DNA of 32,904 nt from NCBI GenBank assembly GCA_005779305.1, contig SXJR01000573.1:1-32904 (forward strand), written 5' to 3'. The position numbers and the translations under genes are program-made. This document shows, piece by piece, positions 2,851 through 32,904 of the stretch. Source of the stretch: Myxococcales bacterium (lineage in GTDB: Bacteria; Myxococcota_A; Polyangia; Haliangiales; Haliangiaceae). The notes below the pieces were generated by a model. The model saw only the letters and a program-made list of their open reading frames with translations, was not told the origin of the DNA and ran no database searches. Position 1 is the stretch's first letter. Each line of letters starts with the position of its first letter.

Positions 2851-3504
2851 ATGCGTCTCCATGGGCGTAGGTTCCACATGCCGGCGGTTGTGGCCCCTGA
2901 GATCGGCTCGCCCACGCCGGTCTCGACCCGCCGACCGGTTCGGCAAGCGCTGCTCGCGGCCGCGGTTTCGCTCGCGTACGCGGCGGTCGTGCTGGCGGTG
3001 GTCGCGCTGCGCCACGAGCTCGGCGACCTGCCCCGGCCCTGGCTCGTGTCGTACCTGGCGGCGTGGCTGGTCGGGTTCGGACTGCCGGTCTGGGTCTCGC
3101 TGGTGCCGCGCACCGGCAGCATGATGCCGCGCTGGCGGCTGGGCCGCGCCTTCGCCATCGTCAACGCCATCGGCTTCGTGGCCGCGGGTCTCCTGGTGCC
3201 GCGCAGCGCGCCCACCAGCCTCGACCGCGGCCTCGCCTCCGCTCACGGCTGCCTCTCGATCGGCCTGGTCACGGCCATCTTGCCGGTGGTGGTCGGCACC
3301 CTGCTCCTGCGTGGCGCGGCCCCGGTCGGCTCCCGCGCCACCGCCGCCGCGCTGGGCGCCTCGGGGGGCGCCCTCGGCGGGCTCGTCCTCCACCTCCACT
3401 GCCCGATCGCCGACGGCGTTCACCTCGGCCTGGTACACGGCAGCGTGGTCGCGATCGCCGCGCTGCTCGCTGCGGCGTTGGTGCCGCGCGCGCTCGAGCC
3501 CTGA
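2851..3504 (+). CDS. NrsF-like (DUF1109-type) membrane protein, putative anti-sigma factor
   Basis: Up to 217 aa with six predicted membrane helices after a polar N-terminus. Near the C-terminus is an intramembrane motif LHLHCP...VHLGLVHG (His181, His183, Cys184, His191, His196 counted from the ATG at 2851). That pattern and the six-helix layout match the NrsF/DUF1109 group, whose characterised members hold ECF sigma factors at the membrane and respond to metal or redox stress. No ECF sigma gene adjoins it here, so that role is inferred from the family. ATG at 2878 (MPAVVAPE) is an alternative start and removes a basic leader. It is convergent with the next gene with a 20-bp gap. Confidence 0.65.
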   Translation: MRLHGRRFHMPAVVAPEIGSPTPVSTRRPVRQALLAAAVSLAYAAVVLAVVALRHELGDLPRPWLVSYLAAWLVGFGLPVWVSLVPRTGSMMPRWRLGRAFAIVNAIGFVAAGLLVPRSAPTSLDRGLASAHGCLSIGLVTAILPVVVGTLLLRGAAPVGSRATAAALGASGGALGGLVLHLHCPIADGVHLGLVHGSVVAIAALLAAALVPRALEP

Positions 3505-3524: not shown

Positions 3525-4940
3525 CTACTTCACGACGACTGGCTGCGAAGCCACCGGCGCCCAGAAGAAGCCGAAGCGGCGGAAACGCTCCTCGAGGCCG
3601 GGGAAGGTGTACGTGCCGTCGGGCCGCATCGTGGGGCCACCGTCCCAGTTGGTGGGGCGCTTGCGATCGTGCGGGGCCGGCACGACCAGCGAGCCGACGT
3701 AGTCGCCCTTGGCGTACACCTTGTCGATCTGCTCCGACATGCGGGCGATGTCGGCGGCCGAGACCACGCCGTTCGAGGTCGCCTGGTAGAACTGCACGGT
3801 CACGCGCACCGGGAAGCGCGGATCGCGCTCGATCTTGAGCCCGTCGAGCTCGGTGTACGGGCCCTCGGTCTCGCCGTGGCCGAGCACCGCCACGTCGACG
3901 TCGGAGTCGCGGCTGCGATCGGCGGCGCTCTTGGTGGCGGTCGGCGGCGAGGGCACCGCGCCCTCGGCCTCGGCGAGCGCCATGCCGCCACCACCCATGC
4001 CGGTGCCGTAGCCCATGCGCGCCACTTCCTTCTGCTTGAGCGGCACCTGGATGAGCATCAAGAGATTCGCGTCCTCGCCCAGCGAGGCGGCGGCTTCGCC
4101 GTTGGCGGTGGTGCCCTTGCGCTGCACGTCCTTCATGCGCTCGGCGATGAGCGGCGCCTTCTGGCCGTCCTGGTTGAAGTAGAGGCGCTGGCCCCAGCTA
4201 CCACCGCCGGTGACGGTGTCGCGGTTGTTGTCGATGATGGTCATACTCGCGCCCTGGCGCGTGACCAGGATGGTGAGCACGCCCGGGTTCTCGGCGTAGG
4301 ACTGGTAGTTGAAGATGACCGGCCAGAACGTCGCCTTGCCGTCCTTGGGCACGGGCAGGAACGCGTGCTGCGCGCTGACCAGCACGTGTTTGTCGCGCTT
4401 GGCGGCCAGGAGCGAGCCCTTGAGGATCTTGCCCTTGCCGGCGTGGCTCAGGTAGCGCGACGGGTTGGCGAGCAGCTGGGTCAGCGTGATGGTGTCGAGC
4501 TTGCCGCCCTTCTGGTTGCCGACCGGGATGTAGATGCGATCCATCCGCACGTCGGCGGTCTTGTCGCTGAAGTTGTCGTGGCGGATGACCGGCATCAAGT
4601 AGGTCTGCCGGCCGTGGGCGTCGTTGGAGGCCTCGACCTCGATCGTCACGTCACTGATGTTGGGGCCGACCGAGCTGCCTTCCCAGCGTCCGGTGTCCTC
4701 CCACATGACGTTGACGATGCCGAGGCCCTTCTTCTGGACCAGGGTCTGCGCGTCCTGGTCGGAGACCATGCCGGCGACCTGCTGGACGATGTCCGCGAAG
4801 CTGCCCTGCGCCATCGGTTGCGCCGACACGGCCGGGCTGAGGAGCGCGGCGGTGGTGGCGGCGGCGAGCGCGGCGCGGGTGAGGCGCGGACGGAGGTGGA
4901 GGTTGCGATGGGTGGCGGGGGGGGCGTGGCGGGGGCTCAT
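3525..4940 (-). CDS. Secreted protein of unknown function
   Basis: 471 aa from an ATG at 4940 with AAGGAGA upstream. A basic, Ala-rich signal peptide ends with AVSA before Gln41 (signal peptidase I type), so the mature protein is exported. The mature part is mostly beta-like with two notable regions: a Gly/Met-rich linker (GYGTGMGGGGMALAE) about two-thirds along, followed by an Asp/Ser-rich low-complexity stretch. I recognise no catalytic motif or family. The reading frame stays open upstream of 4940, but the RBS and signal peptide fix the start. It is divergent from the 163-aa gene at 5059, sharing a 118-bp intergenic region. Confidence 0.8.
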   Translation of the reverse strand: MSPRHAPPATHRNLHLRPRLTRAALAAATTAALLSPAVSAQPMAQGSFADIVQQVAGMVSDQDAQTLVQKKGLGIVNVMWEDTGRWEGSSVGPNISDVTIEVEASNDAHGRQTYLMPVIRHDNFSDKTADVRMDRIYIPVGNQKGGKLDTITLTQLLANPSRYLSHAGKGKILKGSLLAAKRDKHVLVSAQHAFLPVPKDGKATFWPVIFNYQSYAENPGVLTILVTRQGASMTIIDNNRDTVTGGGSWGQRLYFNQDGQKAPLIAERMKDVQRKGTTANGEAAASLGEDANLLMLIQVPLKQKEVARMGYGTGMGGGGMALAEAEGAVPSPPTATKSAADRSRDSDVDVAVLGHGETEGPYTELDGLKIERDPRFPVRVTVQFYQATSNGVVSAADIARMSEQIDKVYAKGDYVGSLVVPAPHDRKRPTNWDGGPTMRPDGTYTFPGLEERFRRFGFFWAPVASQPVVVK

Positions 4941-20121: not shown

Positions 20122-23100
20122 CTAGTTGCACACGCCGGCCGTGCAGGTGCCGGCGCACCGCAGGAGGCCGCTGGCGAAGAGCGGGCTGGTGCATGCCTGA
20201 CCGGCCGCGACCGTGCCGGTCACGTTGAGCGTGAAGCCGCCCTGCTGTCCGTTGTAGCCGTCGACCAGGATGAAGTACGTCCCGGCCGCGACATTGGCGC
20301 GGGTGATCAGCGACAGGAACCCGGTGCCCGAGTCGTCATCGCACTGGAGCTGCATGCCGCAGCTCTGGTCCATGAACATGAGGATGGTGTCGGTGAGCGG
20401 CGTCGAGCCCTCGGTGTCGATGGTCAGCGTCTGCACCGGCACCGGCAGGGTCAGCGCGAACGGAACCTCGGCGCCGTTGAGGCCCTGACACGTGGGCGTG
20501 AAGTTGTTGGCCGCGCCAACGTTGGTGCCGCTGGACACGCCGGCGGTGATGATCGTGGCCGGGTCGGCCTCGCCGATGCAGGTGAACTCGGACGGCGACG
20601 CCGCCGAGAGGCAGCCGGTGTCGAGCGGGTAGTCGATGAAGCCGTCGCCGTCGTCGTCGACGTCGTTGGCGCAGGCCGGGCAACCCGCCATCGGGGTCGG
20701 GAAGCAGGTGTCGGCCTCGTCGTTGTCCGAGATGTCGACGCAGCCGGGATCGTCAGGGTAGCCGTTGGCACCGTCGCCATCGGCGTCGACGAGGTCGTTG
20801 CAGACGGTCGGGCGACAGGTCTCGGCGCCGGTGGTGCCGCCGCAGGTGTAGCCGGTGGTGCAGATGTAGAACGGCGCGCCCGGTGTACAGGCGGCACCGC
20901 CGGGCAGCTCGCCCTGCACGTTGAGGTTGTAGGCGCCGGTCAGGTTCTTGTCGTCGACGATGATGAAGTACTCGCCCTGGCTCACGTTGTTGAGCAAGAC
21001 CCGCGAGTCGCCGTTGCCGGCGGCGTTGTCGTCGCAGGCCAGGTCGGTGCCCGTGCAGTTGGTTCGGCGCACCGCCACCACGGTGTCGAGCGCCGAGCCG
21101 ATGGTGTCGACCCGCAGCCGGGCCAGCGGACGATCGACGATGAAGCGATAGATCTCGTCGCGGCCGTTGGTGCCGCACGACAGCGCCAGGTCGTTGAGGC
21201 GCGTGTTCATGGTGGCATTCACGACGTTGGCGCTGAACGTGAGGATGGGATCGGCCGAGGTGCACACGGCGGCCTCGACGTTGTCCGCCGCCGACGCACA
21301 GGTCGGATCCATCGGGTAGTCGGTGAAGCCGTCCAGGTCGTTGTCCACGTCGTCGCTGCAGATCGGGCAGCCCGCCATCGGGGTCGGGAAGCAGGTATCA
21401 GCCTCGTCGGGGTCGCTGACCGAGGTGCAGCCCGGATCGGTCGGGAAGCCGGGGAAGCCGTCGCCGTCCGCGTCGACCGTGTCGTTGCACGGACCGGGCA
21501 CGCAGGTCTCGGACCCGGCGGCGCCGGCGCAGATATAGGCGTCCGGGCACACGAAGATCGTGCTGGCCGGGTCGCACGACGCGCTGACCGGCAGCATGGC
21601 CTTGATGTTGAGGTTGTACGTGGAGTTGGCGCTGGTCTTGTCGTCGACCACGATGTAGTACTCGCCGATCGCCGGGTTGGCGATGGTGGCGATCGACGCG
21701 GTGCCGGCGCCGGGGCCATTGTCGTTGCAGACCAGGTCGGCCGCGCCACAGTCGCTGCGACGGATCGCGACCACGGTGTCGAGCGCCGAGCCAATGGTAT
21801 CGACGCGGAGCTGAGTCACCAGCCGGTCGAGGACCAGGCGATAGACCTCGTCGCGAGCGTTGGTGCCGCACGACAGGGTCAGATCGTTGGCCCGTCCGGT
21901 CGTCACGGCGCCAGCGACCTGGCCGGTCACGTTGATGACCGCGTCGGTCGACGCGCACTGGATCTCGCTGCCGTCGTTGGCCGAGACGCAGCCCGGATCC
22001 ACCGGGTAGTCGATCCACGGGTCACCGTCGTCGGAGACGTCGTTCGAGCACTGCGGGCACATCGGGCCCAGCGGGCAGTCGTCCGACTCGTCAGGATCCG
22101 AGACGTCGACGCACCCAGGGTCGGTCGGGAAGCCGGGGAAGCCGTCGCCGTCCTGATCGATGGTGTCGTTGCACGCCGCCGGCTGGCAGGTCTCGAGGCC
22201 GGGCGCACCGATGCAGGCGTGGGCCGACGGGCACACGAACAAGGTCGAAGCCGGGCTGCACGAGGCGCCGACCTGGAGCGTGCCGCGCACGTTGAGGTTG
22301 TAGGTGCCGGGGCTGGCGACGAAGCGGTCCTCGACGATGATGAAGTACTCACCGACGCTCACGTTGGTGAGGTTGATGAGCGAGTCACCGTTGAGCGCGG
22401 TGTTGTCGTCGCAGGCCAGATCGGCCCCGTTGCAGGTGCCGACCCGCACGTTGACCACGGTGTCGAGCACCGAGCCGAGGGTATCGATGCGCAGGTTGGT
22501 CAGCGGCCGCGGCACGATCAGGCGGTAGATCTCGTCGCGACCGTTGGCGCCGCACGACGGCGCCGCGTCGTTGAAGCGGCTGCCGATGCCGCCGACGCCG
22601 GCGAGGTTGCCGGTGAACGGGATCACCGGGTCGAACGAGGTGCACGGGGCCAGCTCGCTGGCCTGGGCGGCGAAGCCGCAGCCCGGGTCGTTGGGATAGT
22701 CGATGAAGGTGTCGGTGTCGTCGTCGACGTCGTTGGCACAGGCCGGGCAGCCGACGCCCACGGTCGGGAAGCAAGCGTCGCTCTCGTCGTCATCGGAGCT
22801 GTCGACGCAGCCCGGATCGCTCGGGAAGCCGGGCAAGCCGTCGCCGTCTTCGTCGACGGTGTCGTTGCACGCCACCGGCGTGCAGGTGGCGCCCGGCACC
22901 GTGCCGGTGCACTGGTAGCCGGGGCCACAGGCGAAGGCGGTCGAGGCCGGATCGCAGGCCGAGCCGTTGGCCCACACGCCGCTGACGTTGAGGTTGTACT
23001 GGCCGCTGGTGTTCTTGTCGTCGACGACGATGTAGTAGTCGCCGACCTGGAGGTCGATCAGGTACAGGGACGAGTCGCCGCTGCCGGCGCTGTCGTCGTC

Positions 23101-24570
23101 GCACTGCAGATCGAAGCCGGTGCAGCTCGAGCGGCGCAGCGAGAGCGCGGTGTCGATGGTCGAGCCGATGGTGTCGACGCGGATCTCGGCCAGGGCCGCG
23201 CTGACCCGCAGGAGCCAGACCTCGTCGCGGCCGTTGGTGCCGCAGGTGAGCGTCAGGTCGTTGGTCAGCGAGGCCGTGCTCTGGGCGGTGACGTTGCCGG
23301 TGAACAGGCGAACGGGATCGGCGCCGACGCAGTTGAACTCGCTCACCGCGCTGGCCGAAGCGCAGCTGGTGTCGGCCGGGAAGTCGGTCTGGCCGTCGTT
23401 GTCGTCGTCGACGCCGTTGCCGCACGCCGGGCAGCCGGCGCCCGGGCAGGTGTCGGACTCGTCGGCGTCGAGGGCCGAGGTGCACCCCGGATCGTTGGGG
23501 AAGTCGATGTCGGTGTCGCCGTCGTCGTCACGGCCGTCGCCACACACCGGCAGCTCGCAGCTCATGCCGGTCCCGCCCGCGGGTACGCGGCAGATGTGGT
23601 CGGGCGCGCACTCGCTCTCCATGGTGCAGGCCGCGCCCAGAGCGGCGTGCCGGGTGACGCGCAGGACGTAGCCGCCCGACGTCGCGGGGCCGCGGGCGTC
23701 CACGACCAGGAAGTAGGTGCCGGGATCGACGGTGACGGTGAACGACGAGTCGGTGTTGGTCGGGCCGATGTCGTTGTTGCAGACCAGCTCGGTGGTGGTG
23801 TTGGTGCACGCGCGGCGCAGGTAGAGGACGGTGTCGGCGGTGGTCGCCGGATCGTCGGTCGAGGCGACCAGGGTCTCGCGCTGGGCCACGGTGATCACGT
23901 AGACCGCCTCGGTGCCGGTGCCGACCGCCCCGGTGCAGCGCACCGGCATGAGGTTGGAGATGCCGGTGCCGAGGGTGCCGCTGACCATGCCGTTGGCCGG
24001 CAAGGGCAGGACCGAGGTGCCGTTGCCGCATGCGTTGGGCGAGATATCGAGCTCGGTATTGTCGGCCGCCGACGTGCAGTTCGTGTCGCCGCCGCCGAAG
24101 TCGATCATACCGTCGAAGTCGTTGTCCTGACCATCGCCGCACTCGGGGCAGTTGGGGCCGCTCGGGCAGTCGTCGGTCTCGCTGTCCTGGTTGGGCACCA
24201 GGCAGCCAGGGTCGTTGGGGAAGTCGATCTTGCCGTCGCCGTCGTTGTCGCGATCATCGTCGCAGTCGGGCAGGCCTGAGCCGAACTCGTCGGTGTCGGA
24301 GTCGCTCTCGCAGCCCGGATCGTCGGGGAAGTCGGTCAGGCCGTCGTTGTCGTCGTCGAGGCCGTTGTTGCAGGCGACCGTCGGATCCTGGTTCTCGCGA
24401 TCGTTGCCGGCCATACACGCCGGGTCGGCGTCGTCGGTGAGGCCGTCGAGGTCGTTGTCGACGTTGTCCTCACACTCGGGCGTCTCACTGCCGCCGCCGC
24501 AACCCGAACCAACAACGAGGACCGCGAAGCCAACCGCGGCCAGAAGACGTAGGAGTGCTGAGGAACCCAT
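20122..24570 (-). CDS. Giant surface lipoprotein with six PPC-like repeats
   Basis: 1482 aa with an N-terminal signal and Cys24 (VVGSGC). The N-terminus has four short Cys/Asp modules of the type CxNGxDDDxDGLxDFPxDPGC. Then come six units of about 230 residues, each with a PPC-like beta-sandwich (G-RDE-YR, [12 protein letters not shown], [19 protein letters not shown]) and a Cys-rich linker (CNDTVDxDGDGxPGFPxDPGC; ACANDVDDD). At DNA level the middle repeats recur with periods of 693, 684 and 690 bp. PPC domains (bacterial pre-peptidase C-terminal) are usually found in secreted proteins; the Asp-rich modules likely bind Ca2+. Probably a long extracellular fibre or coat protein; no catalytic domain is seen. 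It is downstream of purH by 83 bp. An RBS-like GGGAGGA lies rather far from the ATG. Confidence 0.88.
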
Positions 24571-29581: not shown

Positions 29582-30799
29582 ATGGCCGACCTCCGTCATC
29601 CCACCCACCCCGCCGTCCTCTCCTGCGCCTGCCTGGCCGCCGGCCTGCTCGGGGCCTGCACCCTCGACTTCGGCGACGACGGCGACGACGTCACCCCCGA
29701 CGCCCGGGTGGTCTTCCCCGACGCACCCAGCCCGGACGCCGCCGTCCCCACCGACGCGCCGATCGACACCCCCACCGACAGCCGCTTCGACGCTCCGCCC
29801 ACCCCGCCCGCCCTCGAGATCCTGAGCCCGGCCGAGAACACCCTCATCACGGGGCACGACAACGTCCGCATCGACGTCCGCGTCACCGGCAACCCGGTGG
29901 TCGGCTTCCAGCTCGCCATCGACGGCACCACCACCACCGCGCTCACCCTCTCGGGCCTGCCGCCGGGCGGCGACTGCTACCTGGGCTGCGACGTCATCGT
30001 GTCCTGGAACGCCGACACCATGCGCGAGGGCACCCACGTCGCCACCATCACCGCCAACAACGGCATGGGCGACATGGCCACGGACGCCGTCACCCTGCGC
30101 TTCGAGGACGCGCCCGAGATCACCTTCCAGCGCCCGACCGGCGAGGTCCGAGGCGCCAGCACCGTCGCCATCCAGGTCGCGGTCGTCGACCGCGGTCCGG
30201 GCAACATCACCGCCGCCCTCTCGATCGACGGCGTCACCGCCCAGAGCGCGACCTGGGCCGACTGCATCCTCGGCTGCACGCTCACCCGGAGCTGGAACAC
30301 CAGCACGCTCACCCCGGGCGTCCACACCCTGAGCATGACCGCCTCCGACGCGGCCGGCCGCACCAGCACCGTGACCCAGAGCGTGATCGTCGGCGACATC
30401 CCCTACGTCAGCCAGATCAACGTCAACGCCAGCGACGGATTCGGCACGCTCGAGGTCGAGGTCCACATGTACGACGCGGCCACCGGCGTCTGGCTCGGCT
30501 GCTCGGGCGACGAGTACGGCCTGGCCAACGTCGCCGTCGGCAACACCCTCTACGCGGTCACCGGCTACTTCGTCGACGCCCTCAGCCGCCCCCTCGGCGT
30601 CGACCAGCTCGCCGGCCGCAACGTCCGCCTGGTCGTCACCGAGGACGACTACATCGAGTGCCCGGCCACACCCCACTCCACCGACGAGATCATCGCCCAG
30701 GGCCCGTCGATCGCCGCCGCGTCCCTGGCCACCCTCTCGACCAGCTTCGGCAACGCCCTCCAGCTCACCACCCGCCACGGCCGCCCCCTGGCGCGCTGA
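29582..30799 (+). CDS. Lipoprotein with Ig-like domains
   Basis: 405 aa beginning with a signal and lipobox LLGAC (Cys26), then an Asp/Pro-rich linker (about 30-75) as in other lipoproteins of this window. Two Ig-like beta-sandwich units of about 100 residues follow. They share motifs (EILSPAENTLITG / EITFQRPTGEVRG; CYLGCDVIVSWNADTM / CILGCTLTRSWNTSTL; GTHVATITANN / GVHTLSMTASD), so an internal duplication is clear. Each carries a CxLGC pair, probably a disulfide. The last 130 residues form a different beta domain. No enzyme motif; an adhesive or structural surface role is likely. ATG at 29582 has GAGGGCGAG upstream. Confidence 0.82.
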   Translation: MADLRHPTHPAVLSCACLAAGLLGACTLDFGDDGDDVTPDARVVFPDAPSPDAAVPTDAPIDTPTDSRFDAPPTPPALEILSPAENTLITGHDNVRIDVRVTGNPVVGFQLAIDGTTTTALTLSGLPPGGDCYLGCDVIVSWNADTMREGTHVATITANNGMGDMATDAVTLRFEDAPEITFQRPTGEVRGASTVAIQVAVVDRGPGNITAALSIDGVTAQSATWADCILGCTLTRSWNTSTLTPGVHTLSMTASDAAGRTSTVTQSVIVGDIPYVSQINVNASDGFGTLEVEVHMYDAATGVWLGCSGDEYGLANVAVGNTLYAVTGYFVDALSRPLGVDQLAGRNVRLVVTEDDYIECPATPHSTDEIIAQGPSIAAASLATLSTSFGNALQLTTRHGRPLAR

Positions 30800-30832: not shown

Positions 30833-31098
30833 CCGGTCGCCCCGAGCGAGGCCGGCCGGCCTGGTCGAAGGGCGCACTCCGTGAATCAGGGCCCGAGGGC
30901 CGGTGGAGACCCCGGACGCGACGGCCTCGGGCGGCCGTGCGTGCGAGGTCCCTCGTCCGCTCAAACAGTCCTCGCGGTACGAGACGCCCAGCGTTTCGCC
31001 TGCACACCCACCACCACGCTGTCACGTGCCCCCGCGGGGCCGCTGCGGAACTCGCGGCCGAGGGATCCTCGCACGCACGTTGCCCGGGCCGTCGTGAC
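30833..31098 (-). repeat. Left, inverted copy of the kelch-flanking repeat
   Basis: Read on the minus strand, this matches the right-hand repeat at 32340-32594. The best block is 30949-30991 (GGTCCCTCGTCCGCTCAAACAG and onward), almost identical to the complement of the right copies. Further similar blocks cover GGCCGCTGCGGAACTCGCGG near 31040 and the TTCGAC/CTCNGGGCG module at 30833-30876. It is more diverged than the right copies are from each other. No convincing gene lies here; it fills most of the 358-bp gap 30800-31157. Confidence 0.75.
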
Positions 31099-31157
31099 GT
31101 CGCACCAACCGCGTGCACGCGACGCATCCTCGTGCCGGGTGCAGCGGACGTTGGTGA

Positions 31158-32114
31158 TCACGTCGGCATTACGAGGCGGTACACCGGGCCGTCCGACATG
31201 AACGCAAGGAGCGCGCCGTCGAGCCAGAGCAGGTGATGTGGCTCGTTCGGGAGACTCGGCAGCCGCGCCCACGCATCGCGCATGACGAGGTACTCGAATG
31301 TCTGGCCGGCCAGCAGCAGGACGATGCGGCCACCGCAATCGAGCAATCTCGGAGGTCCTGCTCCTCCTTCGGGCGGCGGCGCGAGGGGCTCCCACAGATC
31401 CGATCGCGGCTCGTAGCCCCACGTCGAGCACGTCTCGAGGTCGTCGCGCCGGACCATCAGCGCCGCGTCGGTCAAGCGCACCACGGCGAACGGATAGTCC
31501 GGATCCCCCGGAAGGTCCGCGAGCGAGCGCCACGTATCCGCTGCCGGGTCGTAGGCGCAGCCGGCCCCGAGCGTCTTCCACGTACCCTTCTTGACCTCGC
31601 CGGCCCAGATCCAGAATTCGCTCCCTGTCCACAGGTGCAGCCCGTTGGGCGTCGTCGGTGCGTTGGTCTTCGGAAGCTTGCGCCACACGTCGCGCGCCGC
31701 GTCGTACGCGGCACCGTTGAGGCGCGGCGTCCTCGGCCGCGGCGGCCTTTGGTTCCAACCGCCCCAGACAACGAGCTCGCGCCCGGTCCACGCACAACGC
31801 GCCAACTTGCGGACCGACGGTTGCCTCACCTCCGAGATCCGATGCGACGCACCGGTCGCGTCGATCCGCTGGCCGGGGTACATGCCGCTCCAGACGATGA
31901 GGTCGTCGCCGATCGAGACCACGATCCCACCGTCACGCCACCCCGACGGCGTGTCGAGTGATCTCCATTCGTTCGTGCGCGCGTCGTAGGCGAGGCCCCC
32001 GTCGGAGCGGAACCACACCACGCGCCCCGCGTGCACGATCGGACGCCCGTCGCCACGCTCTCGCGGGACCGTCGTCAGCTGGACCCAGCTCACGCGAGCA
32101 CCATCGCACGACAC
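31158..32114 (-). CDS. Kelch-type beta-propeller protein, N-terminus uncertain
   Basis: About 318 aa from a GTG at 32114 (alternative GTG at 32093). Five or more blade-like repeats of kelch type are visible: YDARTNEWRSL, YDAARDVWRKL, YDPAADTWRSL, YEPRSDLWEPL and YLVMRDAWARL, each followed by a hydrophobic strand such as GDDLIVWSG or GRIVLLLAG. This predicts a beta-propeller used for protein or glycan binding. The frame is open upstream to 32441, but that part is non-coding repeat DNA present twice more nearby. No signal peptide or good RBS is visible, so the gene may have lost its true 5' end when the repeat was placed there. Inverted repeats bracket it. Confidence 0.65.
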   Translation of the reverse strand: MSCDGARVSWVQLTTVPRERGDGRPIVHAGRVVWFRSDGGLAYDARTNEWRSLDTPSGWRDGGIVVSIGDDLIVWSGMYPGQRIDATGASHRISEVRQPSVRKLARCAWTGRELVVWGGWNQRPPRPRTPRLNGAAYDAARDVWRKLPKTNAPTTPNGLHLWTGSEFWIWAGEVKKGTWKTLGAGCAYDPAADTWRSLADLPGDPDYPFAVVRLTDAALMVRRDDLETCSTWGYEPRSDLWEPLAPPPEGGAGPPRLLDCGGRIVLLLAGQTFEYLVMRDAWARLPSLPNEPHHLLWLDGALLAFMSDGPVYRLVMPT

Positions 32115-32129
32115 GCCGAAACCCGCCCA

Positions 32130-32904
32130 CGCGCGGCTCTTCGACTCGGCCGCAGACGACCTCGCTCTGCGCGTCAGGTCCGGGTTGAGCCAGGCGTCCT
32201 GAATCCGCAAGAACGTCCGAGTTCCGCGACGACGGCCGGGTCTCGCAGAACGTCCGAGTCCCGCGAGGGCGGCCGGGGTGAGCAAGCCGCAAGGGCGGCC
32301 GGGGTGAGCTCTGGGCGTCCGGCTCGGTGGGTGCGACGGCACGCCGGCCGAGGTGACGTGAGCGCGGGGATCCCTCGGCCGCGAGTTCCGCAGCGGCCCC
32401 GCGTGGGCACGTGACTGCGTGGTGTCGAGGGTCGAGGGCAACGCGCCGTGCGTCTCGTACCGCGAGGACTGTCAGAGCGGACGAGGGACCCCGCGCGCGC
32501 GGCGCCGACGGCCGGCGAGCCCGAGGTCTCCACCACCCTCTCGGGGCGTGCGCCCTTCGACTCGGCCGCAGACGGCCTCGCTCAGGGCGGCCGGGTTGAG
32601 CGAGGTCCGGGTTGAGCGAGGTCCGGGTTGAGCCAGGCGTCCAGATCTCGCAAGAACGTCCGAGTCCCGCGAGGGCGGCCGGGTCTCGGTGGGCAGGACG
32701 TCACGCCGGCCGAGGTGACGTGAGCGCGGGGATCCCTCGGCCGCGAGTTCCGCAGCGGCCCCGCGTGGGCACGTGACTGCGTGGTGTCGAGGGTCGAGGG
32801 CAAAGCGCCGTGCGTCTCGTACCGCGAGGACTGTCTGAGCGGACGAGGGACCCCGCGCTCGCGGCGCCGACGGCCGGCGAGCCCGAGGTCTCCACCGCCC
32901 TCTC
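32130..32904 (+). repeat. Right-hand repeat array (362-bp period), continues past window
   Basis: A 203-bp block at 32340-32542 recurs at 32702-32904 with only four mismatches by eye, a 362-bp period; the window ends inside the second copy. Each block is preceded by a module TTCGACTCGGCCGCAGACGG...CTCGCTC (32136, 32556) and by CAAGAACGTCCGAGT. A 16-bp unit GTTGAGCGAGGTCCGG is repeated at 32595 and 32611. No credible gene is present: short ORFs here repeat in each copy and are Arg/Pro-rich shadows. Confidence 0.85.

Follow-up and report, generated by a model that had tools for sequence, protein, structure and literature searches.

Conserved hairpins in inverted pairs look like the ends of non-autonomous mobile gene cassettes, a family so far undescribed, in Myxococcota

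The window analyzed here, a whole stretch of 32,904 nucleotides on contig SXJR01000573.1 of a Myxococcales assembly (GCA_005779305.1), ends in a kelch-like gene set between copies of a non-coding repeat. The host backbone to the left carries a gene at 29582-30799 (+), probably for a secreted protein, which dnaK follows in relatives. A block of ~280 bp on the minus strand, the B-type end (30833-31111; hairpin core 30936-31079), comes next; its core is 99% identical to that of copy 316B. The kelch-like cargo gene occupies 31158-32114 (-) and encodes 318 amino acids when read from an in-frame GTG at 32114. Its 5' end adjoins 32136-32178 (+), the REP-like tail of a further A unit whose remainder is missing (86% identity to 32552-32594). 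The A-type end lies at 32323-32594 (+), with its core at 32357-32501 and its REP-like tail at ~32548-32594, and a second A copy stands in tandem at 32685-32904 (+; core 32719-32863), where the contig end cuts it. Elsewhere in the window, a 1482-aa, Asp-rich frame at 20122-24570 (-) contains at least 4 tandem repeats of ~690 bp.

A repeat search of the window pairs 30934-31111 with 32325-32503 and with 32687-32865 as inverted arms that are 81-87% complementary, and recovers 32323-32542 and 32685-32904 as a direct pair with 96% identity. When 32340-32594 is used as a query against the window's own genome (G000; 8.08 Mb, 75% complete, its contigs given C numbers), it matches 32702-32904 at 98% and 30833-31096 on the minus strand at 79%. 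Both searches bear out the layout proposed by an earlier sequence-only reading, with the repeat inverted at 30833-31098 and direct at 32340-32594 and 32702-32904. The two direct A copies represent one unit duplicated in tandem, and the element proper is thus B (30833-31111) ... A (32323-32594).

The same reading had placed a kelch-type gene between the inverted copies, and Pfam agrees by a narrow margin: Kelch_1 scores 20.3 bits against a cut-off of 20.1, and the remaining kelch models stay below cut-off. No kelch ortholog was found in 29 other genomes of the family, which yield partial kelch similarity only, or in plasmids. The GC3 of the gene is 0.846 versus 0.978 for the neighboring gene, a foreign-like composition. 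As had been claimed, the 5' end runs into repeat DNA: the frame remains open upstream into the A copy, as far as 32441, and no start convincingly accompanied by a ribosome-binding site was seen. The gene may therefore be truncated; its true 5' end is uncertain, and its own start has probably been lost.

The repeat is not confined to this locus. Nine long copies (~200 bp or more) are present in G000, three in the window and six on other contigs (two on C597, two on C316, one on C24 and one on C257), with E values down to 1e-109, far beyond chance. In addition, C94 carries a solo core fragment of ~139 bp, and on C309 the outer parts of a B end and an A end are fused, the middle being deleted. 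Three inverted pairs occur in this genome, ordered B-A in the window and A-B on C597 and C316; the copies on C24 and C257 are solo. Cores of one type agree closely (97% between 597A and 316A), and the A and B types are about 80-86% alike, with ~86% over the core. Copy 597B is a mosaic of B-type arms and an A-type loop, which suggests that the ends of one element may exchange sequence. The last ~45 bp of the block form a REP-like palindrome that is also dispersed alone and is the only part of the block that most congeners share.

Folding of the copies reveals a feature beyond what the sequence-only reading saw, namely that every copy is itself one long, imperfect and conserved hairpin. The core GCGAGTTCCGCAG ... 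CGAGGACTGTYTGAGC is conserved, and the arms diverge widely and remain complementary. In the middle of the stem lies an invariant internal loop, GCGAGTTCCGCAG opposite CGAGGA(C/CC)TGTYTGAGC; the terminal loop varies in length. Between genomes the arms are almost wholly different, with GCGAGTTCCGCAG and CGAGGA..TGTYTGAGC nearly constant.

A covariance model (R1) was built from 18 aligned copies of G000 and a second genus, G009, and the survey then covered 318 genomes of one bacterial class, mostly drafts or metagenome assemblies. Full-length R1 matches occur in 15 of the 318. The 3' motif CGAGGAN{0,2}TGTYTGAGC occurs in 58 of the 318, with a maximum of 95 sites in one genome, and lone single matches among these may be chance; a reversed-motif control yields almost no matches in the class scan. 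The viral contigs and plasmids searched give no matches. The genome with 95 motif copies, G309 (L247-L276), holds many of them in a ~185-bp unit that resembles a MITE and whose termini are inverted repeats like CTGAGAGAGCGAGAAA. On contig C233 of G119 (L236, L237), hairpins form tandem direct arrays of 2-3 units at ~220-bp spacing, located at ~19.1-19.7 kb and 71.9-72.2 kb, 52 kb apart and in opposite orientation.

Paired hairpins lie inverted, each with its motif's 5' side facing inwards. All 16 opposite-strand neighbor pairs tallied outside G309 run (-) then (+) (two-sided p = 3e-5), three each in G000 and G191, four in G131, two each in G011 and G031, and one each in G009 and G024. The tally was made by reading listed positions and leaves out G309, where pairs are widely spaced, take both orientations and are inconsistent. 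Chance neighbors within 2 kb are expected at 0.01-0.02 per genome. Same-strand tandem neighbors are present too (G005, G006, G106, G119 and G215). Within one pair, the two ends can be aligned along the whole hairpin, and past it they diverge on either side. Two end types are distinguishable in G031 (left-left 91, right-right 91, left-right ~80) and similarly in G191, and in this typing the pairs look like a transposable element whose left end differs from its right end. On contig C28 of G011, the two ends are 93% alike and ~70% alike to another element in the same genome. One inverted pair, on C319 of G009 (L075 ~3358-3430, 4543-4620), is flanked by a diverged duplication in which ~75 bp from the 3' end of the gene upstream are repeated.

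Alternative cargo exists. A GNAT acetyltransferase gene (Acetyltransf_1, 3.6e-17) lies between hairpins on G131 C83, and a glyoxalase/VOC gene (3.9e-15) on G011 C28. The C597 interior is a broken gene, a pseudogene with no Pfam match, and the interiors of C316, of pairs in G031 and G191 and of two G131 pairs are gene-free stretches of 110-250 bp. The interior of G024 C513 is an ordinary-looking periplasmic-binding-protein gene and could belong to the host, which we count against a cassette. On G011 C18, a PF05635 gene lies between one strong and one weak hairpin match. PF05635 is the S23/IVP protein of 23S rRNA intervening sequences (PMC4990558). A PF05635 gene adjoins hairpins in G010, G011 and G054, which is the point of resemblance to those sequences; here, however, the hairpins are not in rRNA, and several hairpin genomes lack any PF05635.

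The PF05635 genes in question sit ~90-310 bp inward of a hairpin in G010 (L220, L223, L224), G011 (L089, L216, L325) and G054 (L307), a proximity that in G010 and G011 is far above chance frequency. PF05635 genes also form inverted pairs, convergent or divergent, in multicopy units (L307 1092-2038, L308-L311, L312-L324) in G054, G006, G031, G005, G002, G003, G001 and G133. In G054 (L307) a near-perfect hairpin with ~30-bp arms precedes each PF05635 gene and stops just before the start codon, and hexanucleotide tandem repeats flank the units. We rejected PF05635 as a general mobilizer, as G131, G191, G119 and G034 have hairpins without it and most PF05635 genes have no hairpin. Other genes that recur beside hairpins across genomes belong mainly to common host families or reflect shared synteny.

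Comparison with congeners locates empty sites. The flanks of C597 enclose 1364 bp (1.36 kb) in G000 versus 12 bp in G005 and 13 bp in G001, and lie within ~230 bp of each other in G002 and G004; the insertion reaches to within ~35 bp of the hairpin tails. The solo core on C94 (~139 bp) is absent from G003, with 1 bp in its place, and from G004, with 15 bp. At the window locus, the left gene is shared by G005 and G001, in which dnaK follows after ~110-130 bp; G000 has the repeat-kelch block there instead; dnaK was not found in the 75%-complete G000 assembly, and the right junction of the window lies beyond the contig end. These congener sites are syntenic and empty. C597 is the clean case, and the other sites show extra DNA at the repeat with no precise cassette boundary. 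Both C316 (~1.26 kb versus 46-151 bp in relatives) and C309 (2.4 kb versus 10-65 bp) carry inserted DNA that exceeds the hairpins, and we count this too against a cassette. No clean target-site duplication was found: C597 has at most a decayed one (11/13 bp by eye), and none was seen at C94.

At C316 (L042 8014-8530), the inserted DNA also holds a gene for a TetR-like regulator, adjacent to the A/B pair and outside it, and the site lacks this gene in the compared congeners. The C309 insertion (L045 4272-6680) follows a FabI-like gene and holds a second kelch gene (653-aa frame) beside the fused B/A remnant. This kelch paralog lies inside the insertion and outside the remnant, so the idea that kelch genes and the repeat are specific partners was set aside as a curiosity.

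We interpret the block pair as both ends of a mobile gene cassette that is non-autonomous, with a probability of roughly 0.6, and the hairpin pairs more widely look like an undescribed family of such cassettes. The idea of a non-autonomous cassette, raised by the sequence-only reading, stands, given a dispersed repeat, alternative cargo and syntenic empty sites in congeners. The counter-case named in that reading, a block restricted in all relatives to one place, in fixed orientation and with no other cargo, does not hold. Each end would be a sequence of 150-280 bp that folds as a long imperfect hairpin, and the inverted ends would enclose dispensable cargo, here the kelch-like gene. A recombinase or transposase acting in trans would recognize the hairpin ends and move the pair together with its cargo; single-strand recognition and movement as a unit are the steps of this mechanism that we infer. 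Solo hairpins would be single-ended or MITE-like derivatives. The cassette in the window would have landed between the probable secreted-protein gene and dnaK, the latter placed by synteny with relatives, where the A end was tandemly duplicated and the kelch gene probably lost its start. No transposase or recombinase linked to the hairpins was found, which counts against the cassette.

ERIC, REP and BIME elements are intergenic imperfect palindromes dispersed in genomes, and the outer tail of the block, REP-like and common in congeners, resembles them. The hairpins might be individually mobile ERIC- or MITE-like palindromes that inserted repeatedly in the same permissive intergenic spots, with the enclosed genes arriving otherwise and the pair forming no unit. 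Solo copies are indeed common (C24, C257, C94, most of those in G009 and the 95 in G309), the solo copy on C94 is an insertion in its own right that relatives lack, the DNA inserted at C316 and C309 is larger than the bracket, and the window carries a tandem duplication of the A unit. We nevertheless regard this explanation as somewhat unlikely. Independent insertion sits poorly with 16 of 16 opposite-strand pairs in one orientation, where ~0.02 chance neighbors are expected per genome, with two end types that are consistently paired, with the close mutual likeness of the G011 C28 ends and with an insertion at C597 that arrived whole. The oriented pairs, differing cargo and two end types also set these hairpins apart from ERIC, REP and BIME. 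A REP/RAYT origin was rejected: RAYT genes (PF01797) are present in G000 and unlinked to the hairpin, none of the 3 scanned from G000 or the 11 from G009 having a hairpin nearby.

Covariation bears both on single-strand recognition by the cassette machinery and on a different proposal, that the hairpin is a transcribed structured RNA, either an RNA gene or a regulatory element, for which mobility is secondary. In an alignment of 64 copies, pairing holds in 96.5% of the stem cells, and the covariation score is 0.479 versus 0.130 for shuffles and 0.04-0.07 for slid structures, an effect size that leans upward because the alignment was fitted to the structure model. On the motif strand, G-U cells outnumber A-C cells by 48 to 13 in this alignment, which may itself favor G-U; the excess hints that one strand may be the folded one. 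Covariation around an invariant, asymmetric internal loop and the G-U excess are what a structured RNA would show, yet recognition of single-stranded DNA would yield the same covariation. Rfam gives no hairpin match above its gathering score, the flanks showed neither a conserved promoter nor a conserved gene context, and we consider the RNA proposal improbable.

The sequence-only reading had offered, as an alternative to the cassette, an invertible segment that could switch kelch expression through recombination between the inverted ends; the cassette part is upheld by dispersal, other cargo and empty sites, and the switch is highly improbable, since apart from the inverted copies and the exchange between ends suggested by the 597B mosaic, there is no linked invertase or adjacent recombinase, one orientation is seen (in one assembly), the kelch gene appears to lack a start and a ribosome-binding site that convince, the interiors of other pairs are gene-free, and the two ends in the window are only 79-86% alike.

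Several known systems share features with the proposed cassettes. Integron attC sites are folded and combine a conserved core with a terminal loop that varies, and their cargo is varied, acetyltransferases included; they form directly oriented arrays beside intI, whereas the hairpins here are inverted, with no integrase seen. The end hairpins of IS200/IS605-type elements share one strand orientation. In contrast to these and to REP-RAYT systems, the pairs here are opposite-strand (16/16), and no Y1 transposase gene is linked to the hairpin. The inverted orientation thus argues against both IS200/IS605-type ends and integron attC arrays.

The closest known kinds are mobile insertion cassettes (MICs) and TIME-COMPs. 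MICs, such as IS231-MIC of Bacillus cereus and mic-qnrD, carry a passenger gene between inverted repeats, have no internal transposase and are mobilized in trans; mic-qnrD has 24-bp imperfect inverted repeats at its ends, and the trans-acting transposase of MIC231 is known (PMC3913671). The hairpin pairs likewise hold a non-transposase gene between inverted repeats with no transposase inside, would be mobilized in trans, and show an insertion with an empty site in relatives (C597 in G001, G002, G004 and G005). They differ in their hairpin ends of 150-280 bp, in that no transposase was found and in having no clean target duplication. TIMEs are Tn3-derived miniature elements with 38-bp Tn3-type inverted repeats and 5-6-bp target duplications; a flanking pair, in either relative orientation, can also bracket genomic DNA and move as a composite, the TIME-COMP (PMC4133298). 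Here, the opposite-strand pairs have one fixed orientation and their ends are hairpins. We do not claim membership in either, since neither a cognate transposase nor a clean target duplication was found and the ends are of another kind. The conserved hairpin motif was not found in the partial collection of literature searched, and a search for MITEs in myxobacteria returned work on an Acidobacteria genome only.

A broader proposal, which we advance only tentatively, is a class-wide gene-capture system of Myxococcota, in which an unknown recombinase would act on a single-stranded conserved hairpin and cassettes would have inverted ends with freely varying arms and cargo, functionally comparable to integron cassettes. 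If the cassette interpretation is true, Myxococcota with large genomes harbor mobile gene cassettes of a type not yet described. A structure model and a 15-base motif can locate its ends, and its cargo, its distribution and the missing recombinase become searchable. Biochemistry would also gain a defined hairpin whose internal loop is invariant, and some orphan single genes in the intergenic regions of these large-genome Myxococcota would be explained.
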